Made by a program: the position numbers and the translations under genes
Part shown: positions 9,341 through 40,987 of the stretch, piece after piece
Layout of the letters: every line of letters starts with the position of its first letter
Position numbering within the stretch: the first letter of the stretch is position 1
The notes under the pieces: model-generated
Told to the model about the DNA's origin: nothing
The model's input: only the letters and a program-made list of their open reading frames with translations
Database searches by the model: none
Assembly: GCA_030024085.1 (NCBI GenBank)
Contig: JASEJE010000021.1
Span: 1 to 40,987, forward strand
Reading direction: 5' to 3'
DNA length: 40,987 nt
From: Bacillota bacterium
GTDB taxonomy: Bacteria; Bacillota; SHA-98; UBA4971

Positions 9341-9451
9341 TGGCGAGATCTCACCATCAACAGGCTTGATCCCTGCAGGCGGTGCGAATTCCGGTATGCA
9401 CGCGTCGACTGCCGTGCCCTCGAGCGGCTGCTTCAGGGTCTCGCCACCTAA
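9341..9451 (+). pseudogene. C-terminal SPASM-like fragment of a radical-SAM peptide maturase
   Basis: The frame here reads LTINRLDPCRRCEFRYARVD then CRALE, close to the end of SPASM-domain peptide maturases (C-x2-CEFRY-x-C-x2-CR). The third Cys of the motif is Arg (CGC at 9401-9403; one transition from TGC). No radical-SAM CxxxCxxC core is found upstream. The frame ends with the TAA contained in the CTAAG end of the repeat element at 9448. Most likely a relic of a RiPP cluster with the exporter upstream. Confidence 0.5.
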
Positions 9452-9645
9452 GTGGGCGTGCAGAAATGCTCCCGACTTTTGGGAGGGGTGCCGGTGATTG
9501 CACGAGGGGTGTCAAAATCCGGCCACTTGCCCGACGGGCCGGATTTCGGCGAAGCGCGCCCCGCTTGGGGCGCCGTCCCCGAGTGCAACACCGGCAACCC
9601 GGCAACTACCGGAAAACGGACAGGAACTAACGCACCCTCACTTAG
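9448..9645 (+). mobile_element. family A palindromic MITE-like element, copy A1
   Basis: A 198-bp element bounded by CTAAGTGGGCGTGC and GCACCCTCACTTAG, imperfect terminal inverted repeats (perfect consensus CTAAGTGAGGGTGC). Inside lie GGTGCCGGTG and CACCGGCAACC arms enclosing a core with the hairpin AAATCCGGCC/GGCCGGATTT and a GCGCCCCGCTTGGGGCGC stem. It has no coding capacity. It sits between the exporter/SPASM region and the convergent asnB-like gene, where its hairpins could also act as a bidirectional terminator. Confidence 0.8.
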
Positions 9646-12172: not shown

Positions 12173-12247
12173 GTAGACGACTTGCTGCTAAACTGCCCGG
12201 GGTGCGGAAGGGACTATGCTTGCCGGGATGGCATTATAGAGCTTCTG
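12173..12247 (+). pseudogene. Trm112-like zinc-motif fragment cut by element A2
   Basis: The frame reads LLLNCPGCGRDYACRDGIIE, the typical zinc-ribbon start (CPxCGRxYPVRDGI) of many SAM methyltransferases or of Trm112-like proteins. It runs straight into the end of element A2 and no methyltransferase body follows. This looks like a gene interrupted by the element, then deleted. Confidence 0.5.
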
Positions 12248-12442
12248 AGTGAGGGTGCGTTAGTCCTTGTCCCATTTCCAGTAGTTGCCGGGTTGCCGGT
12301 GCTGCACTCGGGGACGGTGCCCCAAGCGGGGCGTGCTTCGCCAGAATCCGGCCCGTCTGGCCTGCGGCCGGATTTTGACACCCCTCGTGCAATCACCGGC
12401 AACCCCTCCCAAAGTCGGGAGCACTTTCGCACCCTCACTTAG
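12245..12442 (-). mobile_element. family A element, copy A2 (reverse orientation)
   Basis: A 198-bp copy reversed relative to A1. Its left end is CTGAGTGAGGGTGC (one mismatch from consensus) and its right end GCACCCTCACTTAG. The core order is that of A1 when the whole element is reversed. It follows directly on the Trm112-like fragment. Confidence 0.8.
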
Positions 12443-17392: not shown

Positions 17393-17603
17393 CTAAGTAT
17401 GGCGCCATAAGTCTGCGCCATCTTCCCTGACGGTGTTGGGGTTGCCGGTGCCAGCCAGGGCGGGGCGCCCGGAATTTGGCTAGCCTTAAGCGCCAAATTC
17501 GAACGAGGCTCACCGCACGCGCCGTCCCCGGAGTGCGACACCGGCAACCCCGGACAGGACCTGCGCGCTGAAGAGTAGCGCGAACTTGTGGCGATCTGCT
17601 TTG
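17393..17603 (+). mobile_element. family B palindromic MITE-like element, copy B1
   Basis: A 211-bp element starting CTAAGTATGGCGCCATAAGT and ending GGCGATCTGCTTTG, imperfect inverted ends. Its interior has GGGGTTGCCGGTG and CACCGGCAACCCC arms, the same as in family A, enclosing the hairpin GAATTTGGC/GCCAAATTC. It has no coding capacity. It lies 41 bp after the permease stop and five bases before element A3. Confidence 0.75.
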
Positions 17604-17608
17604 CAAGA

Positions 17609-17807
17609 CTAAGTGCGGGTGCAGAAATGCTCTCGACCTTTGGGAGGGGTTGCCGGTGATTGCACGAGGGGTGTCAAAATCCGGCCACTGGCCAGACGGG
17701 CCGGATTTTGGCGAAGCGCGCCCCGCTTGGGGCGCCGTCCCCGAGTGCAACACCGGCAACCCGGCAACTACTGGAAAAGGGGCGAGAAGTAACGCACCCT
17801 CACTTAG
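17609..17807 (+). mobile_element. family A element, copy A3
   Basis: A 199-bp copy in the same orientation as A1, with ends CTAAGTGCGGGTGC and GCACCCTCACTTAG and the full core (hairpin AAAATCCGGCC/GGCCGGATTTT). It is nearly fused to B1, making a composite of about 415 bp between the permease and satD genes. Confidence 0.8.
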
Positions 17808-19603: not shown

Positions 19604-19950
19604 CGCCGGATACCCCCATTCTACCTGAGCATTCTGCCTATGGTCGCCGTTTCCTGCATGAGACGACGTCGCATGTTGCGGCAGGGCCAGCCGGGCAGGG
19701 CTAGCCGCGCAGGACTCATCGGGAGCACCACCGCAGATACCCAGTCGGGCCAAAGATCTCAGCGCTCCCGAAGCAGGTCCGCGATCGTTCCGGTGAGGTA
19801 TTCTATTAACGCTCTGTTAGTACTGCTCTGTCAGGTACGAAATGCCATCCGGTTTTGGGGGCCTGGCGGGCCTGTCTGGCAGGGCGGCTCCTGGCCCTGG
19901 TGGCCATGGTGGCCATGGTGGCCCTTGACCGTGCAGTTCCTTGGAAACCC

Positions 19951-20407
19951 GTGATGTACGGAACGGGTGCCGCAGAAAGAGTGATGTACGTCAGCAGTCG
20001 GTTCCGATGCGTGACGCAGGGAACGGGTATGGCTGGGACCGGTGATGTACGTCACTCGATGGCTCTCAATGATGACCCAGGGAACAGGTCAGGAGGAACC
20101 CGTGACGTACGTCACCCGTCCCGCTTCGACGAGTGACGTATGGAACGATTCATGGAGAACGCGTGATGTAGGGAACGGCTGGGGAGGAACCCGTGATGTA
20201 CATCACCGCTTGGCTCCCGATGCGTGGCGTACGGAACGGGCAATGCCTGACGAGTGACGTGCGTCATCCTTCCCCTTGCATGTGTGACGTAGAGAACGGG
20301 TAAGGACCGGATCAGTGATGTACATCAGTGGATCGCTCTCAAGCGTGACGCAGGGAACGGTTGAGGACGGACCCGTGACGTGCGTCAGCCGTCGGCTCAA
20401 GTGACGG
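19951..20407 (+). repeat. array of ~15 units of 30 bp, alternating palindromic and asymmetric boxes
   Basis: Boxes starting GTGAYG recur at 19951, 19981, 20011, 20042, 20072, 20102, 20133, 20163, 20193, 20224, 20254, 20284, 20315, 20345 and 20375, always 30 or 31 bp apart, with a partial one at 20401. Two types alternate: type B, the palindrome GTGACGTACGTCAC or GTGATGTACATCAC; and type A, GTGACGYAGGGAACGGGT. The only break in alternation is two consecutive A boxes at 20133 and 20163. Linkers are also related (TCGGCTCYCGATGC after B; GAGGAACCC after A), so this is a ~60.6-bp tandem repeat with a 30-bp sub-period. No frame runs through. The gap 19604-19950 before it has a GGTGGCCAT 9-bp triplication (about 19895-19925) and no gene. 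Confidence 0.9.
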
Positions 20408-20409
20408 TA

Positions 20410-20618
20410 CCAAGTATGGCGCCATAAGTCTGCGACACTTTTCTCGCGGTGTTGGGGCTCGCGGTGCTTGCCAGGGCGGGGCGTCGAGAATTCGGCTAGC
20501 CCGCGCGCCAGATTCGAACGCATCTCACCGCACGCGCCGTCCCCGGAGTGCAACACCGGCAACCCCGGACAGCTCTCACGCACTGAAAAGCAGCGCGAAC
20601 TTGCGGCGATCTACTTGG
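20410..20618 (+). mobile_element. family B element, copy B2
   Basis: A 209-bp copy adjoining the 30-bp array, bounded by CCAAGTATGGCGCC and GGCGATCTACTTGG. The inner arms are GGGGCTCGCGGTG (diverged) and CACCGGCAACCCC. The central hairpin is weakened (GAATTCGGC/GCCAGATTC). No genes are seen between it and 20784. Confidence 0.75.
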
Positions 20619-20783
20619 CAGGAGATCCATATGCAACAGAGCACCATTGGACTATTGGGGGCTGCTGGAGCCGGTGGGGACGGCGCCCGATCGCTTCCCG
20701 TGACATCGGCCTCGCGAGGACGAGCGAGAAGCGGAGCGGCTGGTCTCGGTACTATCCACGCGCCGGCAGCACAGAAGCGAAGG

Positions 20784-24995: not shown

Positions 24996-25008
24996 CCACC
25001 TGAGGTGG
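24996..25008. promoter_or_regulatory. perfect palindrome at the HAD gene start
   Basis: CCACCTGAGGTGG is a perfect inverted repeat around a central G, overlapping the predicted start codon at 25005, in the 180-bp region between the divergent binding-protein and HAD genes. It could be an operator or occlude the ribosome site. Confidence 0.4.
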
Positions 25009-25919
25009 TTCACCTGATCGACCTCATAACATTTGACCTGGATGGAGTGCTCATCCAAAACCCCTTCCGCCGCGGAGTGTTCCCCCATGTCTGCCGGACG
25101 CTGGCCCCTTACGTGATTTCAGCTCGAGGCCGTGCCCAGGAGGTGCAAGTGTGCACAGGCGGGGGGATTCGTGGAAGCCGTGCCGGGTGCCCAGCGCAGG
25201 ACCCGGCAAGGGCTGTACTGCATCTCATCATCCAGGAGGCGAAGAAGCGGATCACCGAGGGGCATCTCGTGGAGGCCTATGACTGGGACGATATCGTGGC
25301 ATGTGTCGCCGCCGACCTGGCCAGTGGAACAGGCGCAAGCAGCGCACCATCTCTCGACGTAGCAGGCCTTGTGCGTCACTACTGCAGAATGCCTGACATG
25401 ATAGCTCTCTTGCCGGGCGCACATGAGGTGCTGAGTTCCTTGCATGAGGACGGGTACCCCCTAGGGGTGGTGACAAACGGGTACCGGAGATACCAACTTC
25501 CTGTTTTACAGGCCCTGGGAATAGATCATTTCTTCGATGTAATGATCACACCCGAAGAGGCTCGAGCAGCCAAACCGCAAGCTCGGATATTTCGGGCGGC
25601 ATGGAACGGCCGGCTCGCGCCGCTCCACGTTGGGGACGATCTGATACACGATGCCTGGGGCGCCCGGGCGGCGGGAGGGTATTCAGTCTGGCTGCACCGA
25701 GACCTACCTGATGATCTACGCCGCGAGCATCCCGAACAGAGGCCCCAATGCGACGGCTTCGCCAGTGTACGAGACAAGGCGTACAGCGGTGTACTCGCCG
25801 GCGAAGCATTTGGCGTCCCAGCCGGCGCCTGCGTCCCCCATGCGATGATAGAGACTCTAGGGGAATTGCCGGGATTGCTCCGGCGGCTGGAGAGGCATAG
25901 CGCCCAAGCCAGTAGCTAA
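25005..25919 (+). CDS. HAD-superfamily hydrolase (phosphatase)
   Basis: About 304 residues. The four HAD motifs are present: FDLDGVL (Asp11, Asp13), VVTNGYRR (Thr), the Lys of AAKPQARIF and HVGDDLIHDAWGA, so it should be a Mg-dependent phosphatase of small metabolites. GTG 25005 is the first start; the ribosome site is weak. Two segments look inserted relative to the family: Gly/Arg-rich residues about 45-65 in the cap, and KAYSGVLAGEAFGVPAG near the C-terminus, between DGFASVRD and ETLGELPGLL. Divergent from the sugar importer, it may act on its product. The stop codon TAA (25917-25919) lies inside the CTAAG end of element A4. Confidence 0.85.
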   Translation: MVHLIDLITFDLDGVLIQNPFRRGVFPHVCRTLAPYVISARGRAQEVQVCTGGGIRGSRAGCPAQDPARAVLHLIIQEAKKRITEGHLVEAYDWDDIVACVAADLASGTGASSAPSLDVAGLVRHYCRMPDMIALLPGAHEVLSSLHEDGYPLGVVTNGYRRYQLPVLQALGIDHFFDVMITPEEARAAKPQARIFRAAWNGRLAPLHVGDDLIHDAWGARAAGGYSVWLHRDLPDDLRREHPEQRPQCDGFASVRDKAYSGVLAGEAFGVPAGACVPHAMIETLGELPGLLRRLERHSAQASS

Positions 25920-26113
25920 GTGAGGGTGCAGAAATGCTCCCGACTTTTGGAAGGGGTTGCCGGGGTTGCACTCGGGGACGGCGCCCCAAGCGGGGCGCGC
26001 TTCGCCAAAATCCGGCCCGTCGGGCCAGCGGCCGGATTTTGACACCCCTCGTGCGATCACCGGCAACCCAGCGACCACTGGAAAAGGGACAAGGACTAAC
26101 GCACGTCACTTAG
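25916..26113 (+). mobile_element. family A element, copy A4, with inverted core
   Basis: A 198-bp copy with ends CTAAGTGAGGGTGC and GCACGTCACTTAG in A1 orientation, but the segment between the GGGGTTGCCGG and CACCGGCAACC arms runs the opposite way: GTTGCACTCGGGGACGG comes first and TTTTGACACCCCTCGTG last, the reverse of A1 and A3. Its two ends supply the stop codons of both convergent neighbours (HAD and the barrel protein). Confidence 0.82.
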
Positions 26114-29100
26114 AAGCTGGCGATGATCTTCAGCGTGCCGGTGTAGGTGTTGAATCCGTCCGTCATGGTGGTGCTCACGCCACGGATGTAGCCGAGGGTG
26201 AGCGAGGCGCGCCAGATGTCGCTGAACCGCCAGTCCGCCGTCAGGTCGACCTTCGCCTTGGTCTCGTCGTAGTCCGCGCCGCTCTTCGTGCCGGACGTGC
26301 GCTCAAACGACCCGCTCACCGTCGTGGAGAGCTTGCCCCCCGGCGAGTAGCTGAAGCTGTTGCCGACGCCGTAGGTCACAAGGTCGTCCTTCTCGCTACG
26401 CCTCTGGTTTCGCCAGCCACTCAGGCTGTCGCTGGCACCCTGCCCGACCAGCCAGCGCAGCCGCACCGCCGTCGCCAGAGAGTCAGACGTTTTCTCGCCG
26501 AGGGTTGGGTGGACCTGCGACGACGTCCGCCAGCTCGCCTCAGCGCTGGGCGTGAACCTCTCGAAGCCTGTGTATGTCGCCGACGTGGACACCTCGTTGT
26601 CTGTGTTGACCTTCTCCGACTCGTGGTAGGCGGTCCCCGTCCGCTTCAGGCGCAGGTCGGTGCGCCACGCCGCGATCTCGCCGCGCACCGCCGCGTCGCC
26701 CGATAGCACAGTCCGCGCCTCTCCCCGTGCAGGCTCGAGGTAGTCCCAGGTCGCGCCGCCGGACGGCGTGAGCTTCAGCCCGCCCAACGCGAACGCCTGG
26801 AACGTTACGCGCGCGCTACCGCGCCTCTGGAGCCTCGTGACGTCCGACGGCACGTCGGTCCGCGAATACTGCGAGAACTGCACGTTCATGCGCGCCGGGC
26901 CGAGCCTGTCGTCCCAGTAGATGGTGGCGCCGATGTCGCGACTCCCCTTCTCGGTGCCGTCCACTGTGATCACGCGCACCGGGAAACGGTAGTAGAGCCT
27001 GAGTGTAACGCTCTGAACAGGCGTGTAGCTGACGTCGCCCTTCACGTTGTAGGAAATGTAAGAGTTCCTGGGCTTCTCGTTGTCGTCGTAGATGACCTTC
27101 TCGTAGCCGGCGCCGAGGGTGAGCTTGTTCGTGAACAGGTTCTCCCGCGCCATGATGGAGTAGGTCGTGCGCTGCGCCTCGAGCCCGTCGCGCGCTGCCT
27201 TGTCCATGCGCTCCAGCGTGTAGTCGAGGTCCACCTCAGGCCCGAGCTTCCACGTGAGCCCCGCCGAATCGGTCGTCACCGTCAGGAGCTCATCCGCCGC
27301 GGAGCCGTCCCCGCCACCGCTGCCCTCACCCGTGATGTCCACGGGGCGCGTGGCGCGGACGGCGTGCTCCGCACGCACGGTCAGGTTCTGCCACACGGTG
27401 TAGGACCCGCCCAGCCGGAACTGCGTGAGGTCCTGGCGGCCGCGCGCTCCTATCGCAAGGAAGGTCGGCTCCACCCGCTCGTAGCTGCCGTAGACTTTCC
27501 CGGCGCCGAGGTCGAAGGCTGCCCCGATGGCGCCCGCGAAGCCGGTGTATGTGTGCTCATCGGCCGGGACGTCCGCGTACCTGTGGTCGTCCTTGCCGGA
27601 GATCCTCGTGTTCTCCTGAACGTGCTCCGTGAAGTCAGCGTAGGACGGCCCGAGCGCGCTCCAGAGGGATAGGCGGTAGAACTCGTCGGCTCCCTCGCCC
27701 GCCCAAACGGCGTCTTCCGCGCCAGGCACACCGGCGGCGCCCGCGACAGCCGTGATCGTGCGCCCACCGGTCGCGTCCACCCGGACGGGGGCGCCAGTGC
27801 CGTCATACCTATACAGCCCATCCTCGCCGCCCAGCCACAGGACGCCGCCTGCGGCGCGGACCGCGTTCCACCGCGCGCCTTCCGTCCCCGCAAGCACCTG
27901 CCACGCCCCGTCAGGCTCGCGCCTGAAGCGGACGCCGCAGTCGGTCGCCGCATACACGTCCCCGTCCCCGATCGCAGAGGACAGCGTCGCGACTTCGGCG
28001 ACCGCCGCGCCGCCGAACTCCGTCGTGAACCTCGTGCCGTCGAAGGACATCAGGCCGGACGGGGTGGCCACGTAGAGGTCCCCGGTAACGTCGGAGAGGG
28101 CGATATCCGTGACGACCTCGCTCATCATCTCGGGGTTGGACCCCTCGGCGAAGGCTTGCCAGCTCTCGAGGTTCCCGGCGCTCGCCCTCGCAAGCCCCGA
28201 GTCCGTCCCGACCCACACCGTCGCCGTGGCGTCGTCCACGAGGACGGACAGGACGTTGGAGCTGGGCAGGCCGTCGCTTTCGTAGTAGCGTCGCCAGTTC
28301 TCCACGCGGTCGAACGGCGGCTCGCTGCCCGGCCCGACCCTCGCCGCAAGCACTGTCAGGCCGGACTCCGTGGCGAACAACCACGAGCCAGAGCCGGCCG
28401 ACGCCGCGATGTCGTAGACGGTCCAGCCAGCCAGGCCGGACGCCGGCGAATAGTGCCTCCACTTGCCGTCCGCGAGATGATACGAGGTGAGGCCGTTATG
28501 ATGGGCGAAGAGCATGTATTCGTTGCCCCCGTCATCCGTGACGAACATTGCGTCGTTTATCCTGTTGGACGTGTTCCTGCGCTGGTTGTCGTCGTACGGG
28601 AAGATCTCGTGGCTGTACGCGACGTCCGCGTCCACCGTCAGCCTGCCGACCTTGACGTCAGCGGACACGCCCGCCACCGTGTGCGTGTTGGGCATGGTGC
28701 GCGCCCGCTCAGGCCCGACGAGCGGGGTCGGCTGGTCCTGGGCGCGGATGATGTCCGCCGCCAGCTTGAGGTCGGGAGTGGGCTGCCAAGCCACGGACCC
28801 GCCGTAGAAGATACGTTTGTATTCCACGGGCACCCCGAGGCCGCCCGCGAAGTATTCGTACTCCACCTTGATGGTGTCCTGCGGCCCGACGTCGCGCAGG
28901 ATGACGAGAACGCCAGCCTCGTAGTCGATGGTGTAGTCGACGTCCCGTTTGAGAAGCTCGCCGTTGAGGTAAACCCGCTCGCTGCCCTGGGCGACGGAGA
29001 TGCCGAGGGTATAGATGTTGCCGGTGATGGAGTAGTTGTACCTGACGCGGATCTCCTCGTAGGAGTCGGGCGCGCCCGCCGGGAACGTGAACTCGGTGAC

Positions 29101-30411
29101 TCCCTGGTCGTAGTAAACCGTGTAGAAGAGGCCAGGGATGGCGTCGGCCTCGGTGTAGGTGCCTCCGACGAGGACCTCGATCTTGACCGACTCCAGGTCT
29201 ATGCGCTCGTGGCCGAGGAGGTAGAACCTCCCCGTCGCGTAGTCCTCAAGGGCGCTATCGAGCACCTTCGTGTCGGACTCGGGAAGTCCGGCGACGATCC
29301 ACGAGTGGTCGTCGCAAAGTTCCTCCAGGAAAGCCTTTTCGGAGTCGCTGCCCACCACGAAGGGATACACCTTCTGGTCTGGCCCGGTGAGGCCGTTCTT
29401 CGTGTTATACTCCCGAATGAGATCGCGGACCTGGTCGCGGAGGAGGTCCAGGGACTCGCGCTGCAGGATCAAGTGGTCACCGTCTGTGCTGGTCACGACG
29501 GTGTATTTCCCCCGGTCCACCTCCTTCAGGTCGCCCGCGGCGATGACGCCGTCATCGTCCTCGGACTCCCGGTAGAGGTAGTCCATGTCGTAGTTGGTGA
29601 GGAGCTCAAGGAGGGTGCGCTGCGCGCCGGGGGCGCCGTCGGCATACCGCAGCTCGACCTTCATGAAATCGGGGTCGAACGTGCCCGACATGCGGTACGA
29701 CTCCGCGCCGCCGATGGACGCCACGAGCACCGCGCGCTCACGGGTGGGCGCGTAGGGGCCATCGTGCCTGAAGACGGTCGTGTCGCTGCTGGACGCACCC
29801 TTGAACGTCTTCGAGGCCGGGATGCCCTTGACGCGGCCGAGGATGGCACCCACCGTGAAGTCGTCCAGCTTCGCGGCCACCTGCACGCCGCGCAGCGTGA
29901 GGCGGCGCGCCACGTAGGGGTTCGCGGTCGCGTAGGCGAAGTCGCCGAAGCACCCTGAGATGGTCTCGTTCTTGAAGTCTATGCGCACGAGCTGGAGGTT
30001 TCCCGAGCTATAGTTGTCGAGGGACGCGGACACGCTGAACCCGCCCGGCAGCTCACCCGAAATGGTGAGGCGCAGCGTCTGGGACACGATGAGCGTGTTG
30101 ATGGCATACCCCTGCAGGCCCTTGAGGCCCTCCGGGTCGCCCGCCGCGTAGGTCGCGGTCCACACCGCCTCGCCGGACACGTCAACGCCCTTGGTAACCT
30201 CCGATGCGCTCGCCGCCGCGCCGCCCCAGGCGGCTATCGCCGCTAGCAGCGCCATGCACGACACGAGCGCGATCGCAACCGCCGTCGCGGGCGTAACCGC
30301 CGCGGGCCTCACGCGCTCCGCGCAACCCCGCCGCGCGCGACGCCGCACCGCCCACAAGGTCCGCGCCTGTAAAGCCCGACCGAACCCCCATCCCAGCCGT
30401 CCTCTGACCAC
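26110..30411 (-). CDS. very large outer-membrane barrel-like protein with embedded propeller repeats
   Basis: 1433 residues. GTG 30411 follows a G-rich site (AAGGGGGG). A long basic start leads into a hydrophobic signal segment (AVAIALVSCMALLAAIAAW) and ASA-type cleavage region. Residues about 75-560 form alternating-strand segments with family-like surface repeats (LGVPVEYKRIFYGGSVAW). Residues about 640-930 carry Reg_prop-type propeller blades, for example VLVDDATATVWVGTDSGLAR and SDVTGDLYVATPSGLMSFDG. From about 1000 to the end it is rich in amphipathic beta-strands, ending LKIIASF; a terminal Phe is typical of proteins folded by the BAM machinery. I infer an outer-membrane protein displaying or surrounding a propeller. 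The function is unknown. It is last in the minus-strand envelope block, downstream of the subtilase gene. The stop comes from element A4. Confidence 0.75.
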   Translation of the reverse strand: MVRGRLGWGFGRALQARTLWAVRRRARRGCAERVRPAAVTPATAVAIALVSCMALLAAIAAWGGAAASASEVTKGVDVSGEAVWTATYAAGDPEGLKGLQGYAINTLIVSQTLRLTISGELPGGFSVSASLDNYSSGNLQLVRIDFKNETISGCFGDFAYATANPYVARRLTLRGVQVAAKLDDFTVGAILGRVKGIPASKTFKGASSSDTTVFRHDGPYAPTRERAVLVASIGGAESYRMSGTFDPDFMKVELRYADGAPGAQRTLLELLTNYDMDYLYRESEDDDGVIAAGDLKEVDRGKYTVVTSTDGDHLILQRESLDLLRDQVRDLIREYNTKNGLTGPDQKVYPFVVGSDSEKAFLEELCDDHSWIVAGLPESDTKVLDSALEDYATGRFYLLGHERIDLESVKIEVLVGGTYTEADAIPGLFYTVYYDQGVTEFTFPAGAPDSYEEIRVRYNYSITGNIYTLGISVAQGSERVYLNGELLKRDVDYTIDYEAGVLVILRDVGPQDTIKVEYEYFAGGLGVPVEYKRIFYGGSVAWQPTPDLKLAADIIRAQDQPTPLVGPERARTMPNTHTVAGVSADVKVGRLTVDADVAYSHEIFPYDDNQRRNTSNRINDAMFVTDDGGNEYMLFAHHNGLTSYHLADGKWRHYSPASGLAGWTVYDIAASAGSGSWLFATESGLTVLAARVGPGSEPPFDRVENWRRYYESDGLPSSNVLSVLVDDATATVWVGTDSGLARASAGNLESWQAFAEGSNPEMMSEVVTDIALSDVTGDLYVATPSGLMSFDGTRFTTEFGGAAVAEVATLSSAIGDGDVYAATDCGVRFRREPDGAWQVLAGTEGARWNAVRAAGGVLWLGGEDGLYRYDGTGAPVRVDATGGRTITAVAGAAGVPGAEDAVWAGEGADEFYRLSLWSALGPSYADFTEHVQENTRISGKDDHRYADVPADEHTYTGFAGAIGAAFDLGAGKVYGSYERVEPTFLAIGARGRQDLTQFRLGGSYTVWQNLTVRAEHAVRATRPVDITGEGSGGGDGSAADELLTVTTDSAGLTWKLGPEVDLDYTLERMDKAARDGLEAQRTTYSIMARENLFTNKLTLGAGYEKVIYDDNEKPRNSYISYNVKGDVSYTPVQSVTLRLYYRFPVRVITVDGTEKGSRDIGATIYWDDRLGPARMNVQFSQYSRTDVPSDVTRLQRRGSARVTFQAFALGGLKLTPSGGATWDYLEPARGEARTVLSGDAAVRGEIAAWRTDLRLKRTGTAYHESEKVNTDNEVSTSATYTGFERFTPSAEASWRTSSQVHPTLGEKTSDSLATAVRLRWLVGQGASDSLSGWRNQRRSEKDDLVTYGVGNSFSYSPGGKLSTTVSGSFERTSGTKSGADYDETKAKVDLTADWRFSDIWRASLTLGYIRGVSTTMTDGFNTYTGTLKIIASF

Positions 30412-40611: not shown

Positions 40612-40857
40612 GTGAAATCTACGGGAATCGTTCGCAAAGTGGATGAGCTAGGTCGTGTGGTAATCCCAATCGAGCTTCGCAGGACGCTACAGATCGAAGA
40701 GAAAGACGCCCTTGAGATCTACGTTGACGGCGAGAAGATCATATTGAAGAAATATGAGCCTGCCTGCATTTTCTGCGGCAACGCCGACAACATCAGGATC
40801 TTCAGGGAGAAGAACATCTGCCGGGATTGCCTCGAGGAGATGAAGGGCATCCTCTAA
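40612..40857 (+). CDS. abrB: AbrB/SpoVT-family transition-state regulator
   Basis: 81 residues. GTG 40612 follows GAGGAGGGAG at 40594-40603. The swapped-hairpin DNA-binding domain is MKSTGIVRKVDELGRVVIPI to DALEIYVDGEKIILKKYEP, with the LGRVVIP signature; then a small CxxC...CxxC tail (CIFCG, CRDC) typical of the clostridial form. It is a cytoplasmic DNA-binding regulator of the growth transition. Divergent from metG, as in Bacillus. Its stop codon TAA (40855-40857) lies in the CTAAG end of element B3. Confidence 0.95.
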   Translation: MKSTGIVRKVDELGRVVIPIELRRTLQIEEKDALEIYVDGEKIILKKYEPACIFCGNADNIRIFREKNICRDCLEEMKGIL

Positions 40858-40987
40858 GTATGGCGCCATAAGTTTGCGCTACTTCTCCTGACGATGTTGG
40901 GGTTGCCGGTGCTTGCTAGGGCGGGGCGCCTGGAATTTGGCTAGCCTTAAGCGCCAAATTCGAACGAGGCTCACCGCACGCGCCGTC
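40854..40987 (+). mobile_element. family B element, copy B3 (cut by window end)
   Basis: It starts CTAAGTATGGCGCCATAAGT, then has the GGGGTTGCCGGTG arm and the GAATTTGGC/GCCAAATTC hairpin, identical in layout to B1, and runs off the window at the shared CACGCGCCGTC segment. The right end is not visible. Confidence 0.8.

Follow-up and report, generated by a model that had tools for sequence, protein, structure and literature searches.

Recurrent inversion of the core of a short mobile element between 12-bp inverted repeats in Bacillota genomes

Within the 40,987-nucleotide stretch of DNA from an uncultured Bacillota bacterium analyzed here (the window, part of contig C13 of a 3.1 Mb draft genome that comprises 65 contigs and is 96% complete), one short repeat, A4 (25916-26113, forward strand), combines outer ends in the usual orientation of its family with a reversed core. 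This arrangement raises the question of how a mobile element acquires an inverted core and whether the inversion is a gene switch, a single old rearrangement, or a recurrent event. The same core sequence is present in named relatives, which are metagenome-assembled Bacillota and include one placed in Candidatus Fermentithermobacillaceae; all the genomes compared here are draft metagenome-assembled genomes (MAGs).

Comparison of the window with itself revealed four A elements and three elements of a second family, B, which has the same arms combined with different ends and a different core. A1 (9448-9645, forward strand), A2 (12245-12442, reverse strand) and A3 (17609-17807, forward strand) share one orientation of the core relative to the ends (left end, core, right end), as a preceding reading of this DNA from sequence only had concluded. 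A3 adjoins a B element (17393-17608), and the other two B elements are located at 20412-20623 and at 40854-40987, the latter cut off by the end of the window (all three on the forward strand). The ends of A4 are collinear with those of A3 (89.5% identity on the left and 80% on the right, against 62% and 54% when the ends are swapped), whereas the 116-bp core including the arms (25954-26069) is 61.5% identical to the A3 core as it stands and 96.6% identical when reverse-complemented, a match beyond chance (BLAST E ~1e-47). Thus, the core inversion in A4 is real and well bounded, and the sequence-only reading was correct in both its coordinates and its description of the element.

Alignment of the ends and the genome search delineate the parts of A4. 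The outer left end AL, AGTGAGGGTGCAGAAATGCTCCCGAC... (25919-25953, forward strand), is followed by the left 12-bp arm GGGTTGCCGGGG (25954-25965, forward strand; family consensus GGGTTGCCGGTG), the core between the arms, reversed compared with A1, A2 and A3 (25966-26057, reverse strand), the right 12-bp arm CACCGGCAACCC (26058-26069, reverse strand), and the outer right end AR, AGCGACCACTGG...GTCACT (26070-26110, forward strand); the two arms are the inversion junctions. The ends are flanked by putative TA target duplications at 25917-25918, within CTAAG, and at 26111-26112, which are suggested by A elements nested at CTAG in the B core and by the ends of the adjacent open reading frames (ORFs). 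In the predicted fold of the A4 single strand, the arms pair over two inner hairpins, GGCGCCCC/GGGGCGCG (25980-25999) and CAAAATCCGGCC/GGCCGGATTTTG (26006-26041), and this fold outperforms all 200 of 200 shuffled sequences (z -4.7); no Rfam family matched the window.

The element, of about 198 bp, multicopy and dispersed, falls within the 50-500 bp size range of MITEs. Its terminal inverted repeats are imperfect, with a stretch of 14 bp, CTAAGTGAGGGTGC...GCACCCTCACTTAG, that is perfect in the consensus, and the termini are CTAAGT...ACTTAG in all families. Two A copies nested in the B core (L003 and L005), where CCGCC-CTAG-CAAGC has become CCGCC-CTA-AGTG...CACT-TAG-CAAGC, indicate that the TA is duplicated upon insertion at CTAG, and a comparison of two filled copies at one identical site (L034 and L230) supports this target; no clean pair of empty and filled sites was found outside repeats. 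CTAG is rare in the window (31 occurrences against 62 expected from trinucleotides). IS630 elements have the target 5'-CTAG-3' with duplication of the TA (ISY100; cited in PMC2170065), and by this target, we infer that the mobilizing transposase is of the IS630 type. The host genome lacks PF13358, the IS630 transposase domain, which could be lost or encoded in missing sequence, and the genus yielded no intact IS630-type transposase, with short PF13358 remnants in three of five congeners. Like the MITEs of the IS630/Tc1-mariner type, the A elements have terminal inverted repeats, are non-coding and intergenic, and appear to insert at CTAG with the TA duplicated; unlike these, the A4 family has a modular core between conserved boxes and resides in a host genome that lacks PF13358.

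A4 is flanked by two genes that are convergent, as the sequence-only reading had noted, and whose stop codons both lie within the element ends: a HAD-family hydrolase gene (25005-25919, forward strand), the 3' end of which is inside the left end, and a 1433-aa ORF (26110-30411, reverse strand), which terminates in the right end and produced no match in a Pfam search. Because insertion occurs at CTAG with the TA duplicated, both genes end exactly in the ends of A4: the duplicated TA together with the first A of the element forms TAA, the stop codon of the HAD-family gene, and the right TA duplication is part of the stop codon of the ORF (26110-26112, reverse strand). Orthologs of the 1433-aa ORF are present in the genus, and in two of the related genomes (G003 and G004), their ends are occupied by other repeats; an empty site for A4 was not found, as the two genes were not detected next to each other in the congeners. 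Another small repeat, CTTAGCCCATTTTCCGCATTAGGAGCGCGGCC..., adjoins A and B elements and likewise has CTTAG at its end; it was seen at L082 (positions 1261-1503) and L081, which lie next to the 1433-aa ORF orthologs in G003 and G004, and at L051 and L103.

To assess how common the inverted form is, A copies were gathered with their flanks from related genomes and both ends of every core were typed; each search contributed its 40 best places, so the counts are lower bounds. The host genome contains at least about 40 A copies of the 198-bp element (searches with A4 and A3) and at least 40 B copies. The complete A-ended copies in this genome include at least 23 with the normal core and at least 5 with the flipped core, namely, A4 itself, three copies that match it end to end at 92-94% (C22:145888-146084, C29:22604-22802 and C44:31046-31244) and a diverged fifth one (C22:83020). 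With four more flipped copies in the same genome and others in two related species, the alternative that A4 alone is flipped is false. In a tally of core orientation, which the sequence-only reading had proposed genome-wide and which here covers the genus, flips recur: at least 16 flipped A-ended copies stand beside at least 99 normal ones among the matches listed, with flipped copies probably over-represented because A4 served as the query. Flips also occur, among the matches listed, in the C family, in which an A-type core is enclosed by another pair of ends (19 normal, 1 flipped, L157), and in the B family, with its own core (37 normal, 1 flipped, L281 on contig C47, found with a composite query in which B ends enclose a reversed B core); a truncated element, L282, is likely a second flipped B copy. 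The ratios of normal to flipped copies in the three families are not to be taken as rates.

The flipped copies do not descend from a single event. In a tree of the end sequences, a single clade of flipped A ends was rejected (p-AU 0.026), and this result, along with the flips within B and C ends, rules out a single old rearrangement, the outcome that the sequence-only reading had named as refuting its claim. The end tree contains 7 orientation changes, or at least 4 when only the firm branches are trusted; given that the alignment spans only 87 columns and that a foreign insert common to both is what joins L098 with L125, three independent origins, in A, B and C ends, appear safe to claim, and a pair of elements with AR2 ends (L092 and L100) probably represents a fourth. 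L281 is most similar to the normal B copy L050 in both the left end (96.8%) and the core (97.3%), which points to one recent simple inversion; in the right end, L050 is level with other copies (96.7%). The L281 site lacks a B element in the five congeners and so is uninformative on inversion in place.

The breakpoints of the A, B and C flips all fall within one 12-bp inverted repeat, GGGTTGCCGGTG. The normal A consensus reads GACTTTTGGGAG|GGGTTGCCGGTG|ATTGCACG at one junction and CCAGTAGTTGCC|GGGTTGCCGGTG|TTGCACTC at the other, and the flipped consensus differs from it by an exact exchange of the two outer 12-mers at the box, which lends good support to the proposed inversion at short inverted repeats. 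The same box bounds exchanges between families: in L018, an A core is inside B ends, and half-exchanged chimeras are joined at the box in L020 (BR'-cA-AR1), L021 (BL-cA-AR3), L006 (BR'-cA-AL') and L154 (CL-cA-AR1). L099 (AL-cA-AL') is likewise joined at the box; in this half-exchanged element and in L147, the core is enclosed by two left ends. In several A copies (L029, L035, L082, L098 and L125), the part of the left end from GTGCAG outward has given way to a foreign sequence that these copies share, GTTCAACAGTCT, which again indicates that repeat families have been joined. We also considered the core as an independently mobile element and rejected this possibility: the core-only hits (for example, L026, L035 and L152) look truncated or decayed, and no intact core outside an element was seen among the core hits.

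Orientation is stable at insertion sites that are shared between species. At all 11 sites common to related species, three of them flipped, the core orientation is the same, that is, at none of the 11 is an insertion normal in one species and flipped in another (orientation was judged relative to the ends and flanks; the comparison is mostly that of G003 with G004, with flanks about 85-98% identical). Thus, over the time that separates these species, the core flip is not reversible, and the reversible switch suggested by the sequence-only reading is not supported, all the more so as no promoter-like or terminator-like site was found. With no site containing both forms, inversion in place was not caught in these comparisons, and the inversion could instead accompany transposition or gap repair. 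Three further shared sites (L135/L125, L158/L116 and L034/L230) differ in the orientation of the element as a whole, and the elements at these sites differ enough in sequence to indicate separate insertions. L034 (G000 C44) and L230 (UBA6811 contig DKEX01000104) are A elements in opposite orientations at the same CTAG, and another CTAG site is occupied by a B element in one species (L284, G000 C24) and by an A element in the other (L207, G004); such sites with different elements point to strong reuse of the target or else to replacement through recombination.

We consider it rather probable that recurrent but rare events between the arms, either template switching or strand exchange in a hairpin, give rise to the flipped cores, which then spread by transposition. 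In this scheme, the inner hairpins would bring together the two 12-bp inverted repeats, GGGTTGCCGGTG and CACCGGCAACCC, in single-stranded DNA; on rare occasions, a polymerase stalled at the hairpin would switch template at one arm, copy the core from the other strand and switch back at the other arm, leaving the core inverted and the rest of the element intact. Alternatively, the arms of a cruciform would exchange strands. The flipped copies would then transpose and be inherited like any other subfamily. We infer the polymerase step and its timing from the products; arm homogenization and spacer inversion are both known products of template switching between short inverted repeats (PMC8604942, PMC8794818), and both marks are seen here: the breakpoints are inside the inverted-repeat arms, and the two arms within a copy carry 14 identical paired substitutions against 2.5 expected, a value reached in 0 of 10,000 shuffles, although some of these come from related copies, and relatedness was not removed in the shuffling. 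In L100, both arms have changed since the split from the ortholog L092, and the paired changes, including this one, are what template switching from one inverted repeat to the other characteristically leaves behind. Paired changes could also result from selection for pairing, and because some of these come from related copies, the two causes are not fully separated by the arms; selection could not, however, give inversions.

In published cases, the spacers inverted by template switching measure 2-8 nt (PMC8604942; loop inversions in PMC8794818), whereas the spacer here is about 92 nt, so template switching is plausible only if the inner hairpins shorten it. A4 resembles quasipalindrome template-switch mutations in its short inverted arms, inverted spacer and arms copied onto each other, and differs from them in that the spacer is long, structured and located in a mobile repeat that multiplies the inverted form. 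The small hairpin-mediated inversions in plastid genomes (Kim and Lee 2005, as cited in PMC12928735), described there as having arms of 11-24 bp, are similar in that a small inverted segment recurs in different lineages; unlike these, A4 is a bacterial dispersed repeat in which flip-flop was seen at no shared site. Of the two mechanisms offered in the sequence-only reading, hairpin or cruciform strand exchange fits the data better, and a dedicated recombinase fares worse, with no serine recombinase found and with paired substitutions in the arms.

Exchange of cores between families requires a second molecule, so that gap repair or ectopic template switching contributes as well. Could ectopic recombination account for the inversions as well, a gap left by excision or a break being filled from a copy in the opposite orientation that pairs only at the 12-bp boxes? 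Such repair would also explain replacement by cores of other families, inter-copy exchange being needed for L018, L020, L021, L006, L154 and L099, and the flipped L004 combines ends of the flipped subfamily with a core 99% similar to those of young normal copies. However, L281 is closest to L050 in both the left end and the core, as self-inversion predicts, and a 12-bp pairing is short for RecA-type recombination; as the general source of the flips, gap repair therefore seems unlikely, albeit a serious contender. A constant box at every junction in three families is what would be expected of a site-specific recombinase inverting the core, as in phase-variation switches, and one tyrosine recombinase beyond XerC and XerD is present. 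Nevertheless, we regard this explanation as improbable: orientation is fixed at the orthologous sites, the boxes are often mutated, and a free switch would drift to a mixture rather than to 99 normal versus 16 flipped copies among the matches listed. The sequence-only reading had called for a recombinase of the tyrosine or the serine type, and only the former was found in the host genome, represented by XerD, XerC and an unplaced integrase of 429 aa (L300, G000:C11:15146-15745) that scores below the cut-offs of both XerC and XerD; no invertase gene was found among the examined neighbors of A4. There is likewise little likelihood that the box is the exchange site of modular mobile elements, at which a dedicated enzyme would shuffle and invert the cores (A, B) and the end frames (A, B, C); this enzyme, for which L300 is a candidate, might act on a folded single strand as integrases act on folded attC.

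Two further explanations carry even less weight. The repeats could have been misassembled in the MAGs, several contigs of which end inside cores (for example, G004:C90 and C95), and odd chimeras such as L099 are possible misjoins; yet the flipped junctions recur at orthologous loci of independent MAGs (L093/L101, L092/L100 and L089/L098), the A4 core contains private substitutions and the 12-bp box is too short for assembly k-mers, making an artefact very improbable. An orientation switch regulating the two genes next to A4, compatible with their convergence and with the location of both stop codons in the element ends, is barely credible and was rejected, because orientation is kept between species, regulatory signals are lacking, and flipped elements adjoin many unrelated genes. 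The inverted core has the look of an accident of replication that was subsequently copied, rather than that of a gene switch.

Our searches of the open-access literature yielded no description of a bacterial MITE with an inverted core. Whole-element inversion has been reported for the Correia repeat enclosed elements of Neisseria (cited in PMC10969869), which are also small intergenic mobile repeats; as presented in that source, the whole element inverts there, whereas in A4 the ends keep their order and the core alone is inverted. The families described here demonstrate that a core inversion can turn into a self-spreading subfamily of a mobile element, and with dozens of related copies in several species, inversion, arm homogenization and module exchange can be counted as independent natural events, providing a bacterial data set on the frequency and spacer length of inversion by template switching. 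Elsewhere in the window, diverged direct repeats that are 70-74% identical and do not form a simple tandem array (19942-20398) adjoin a B element.
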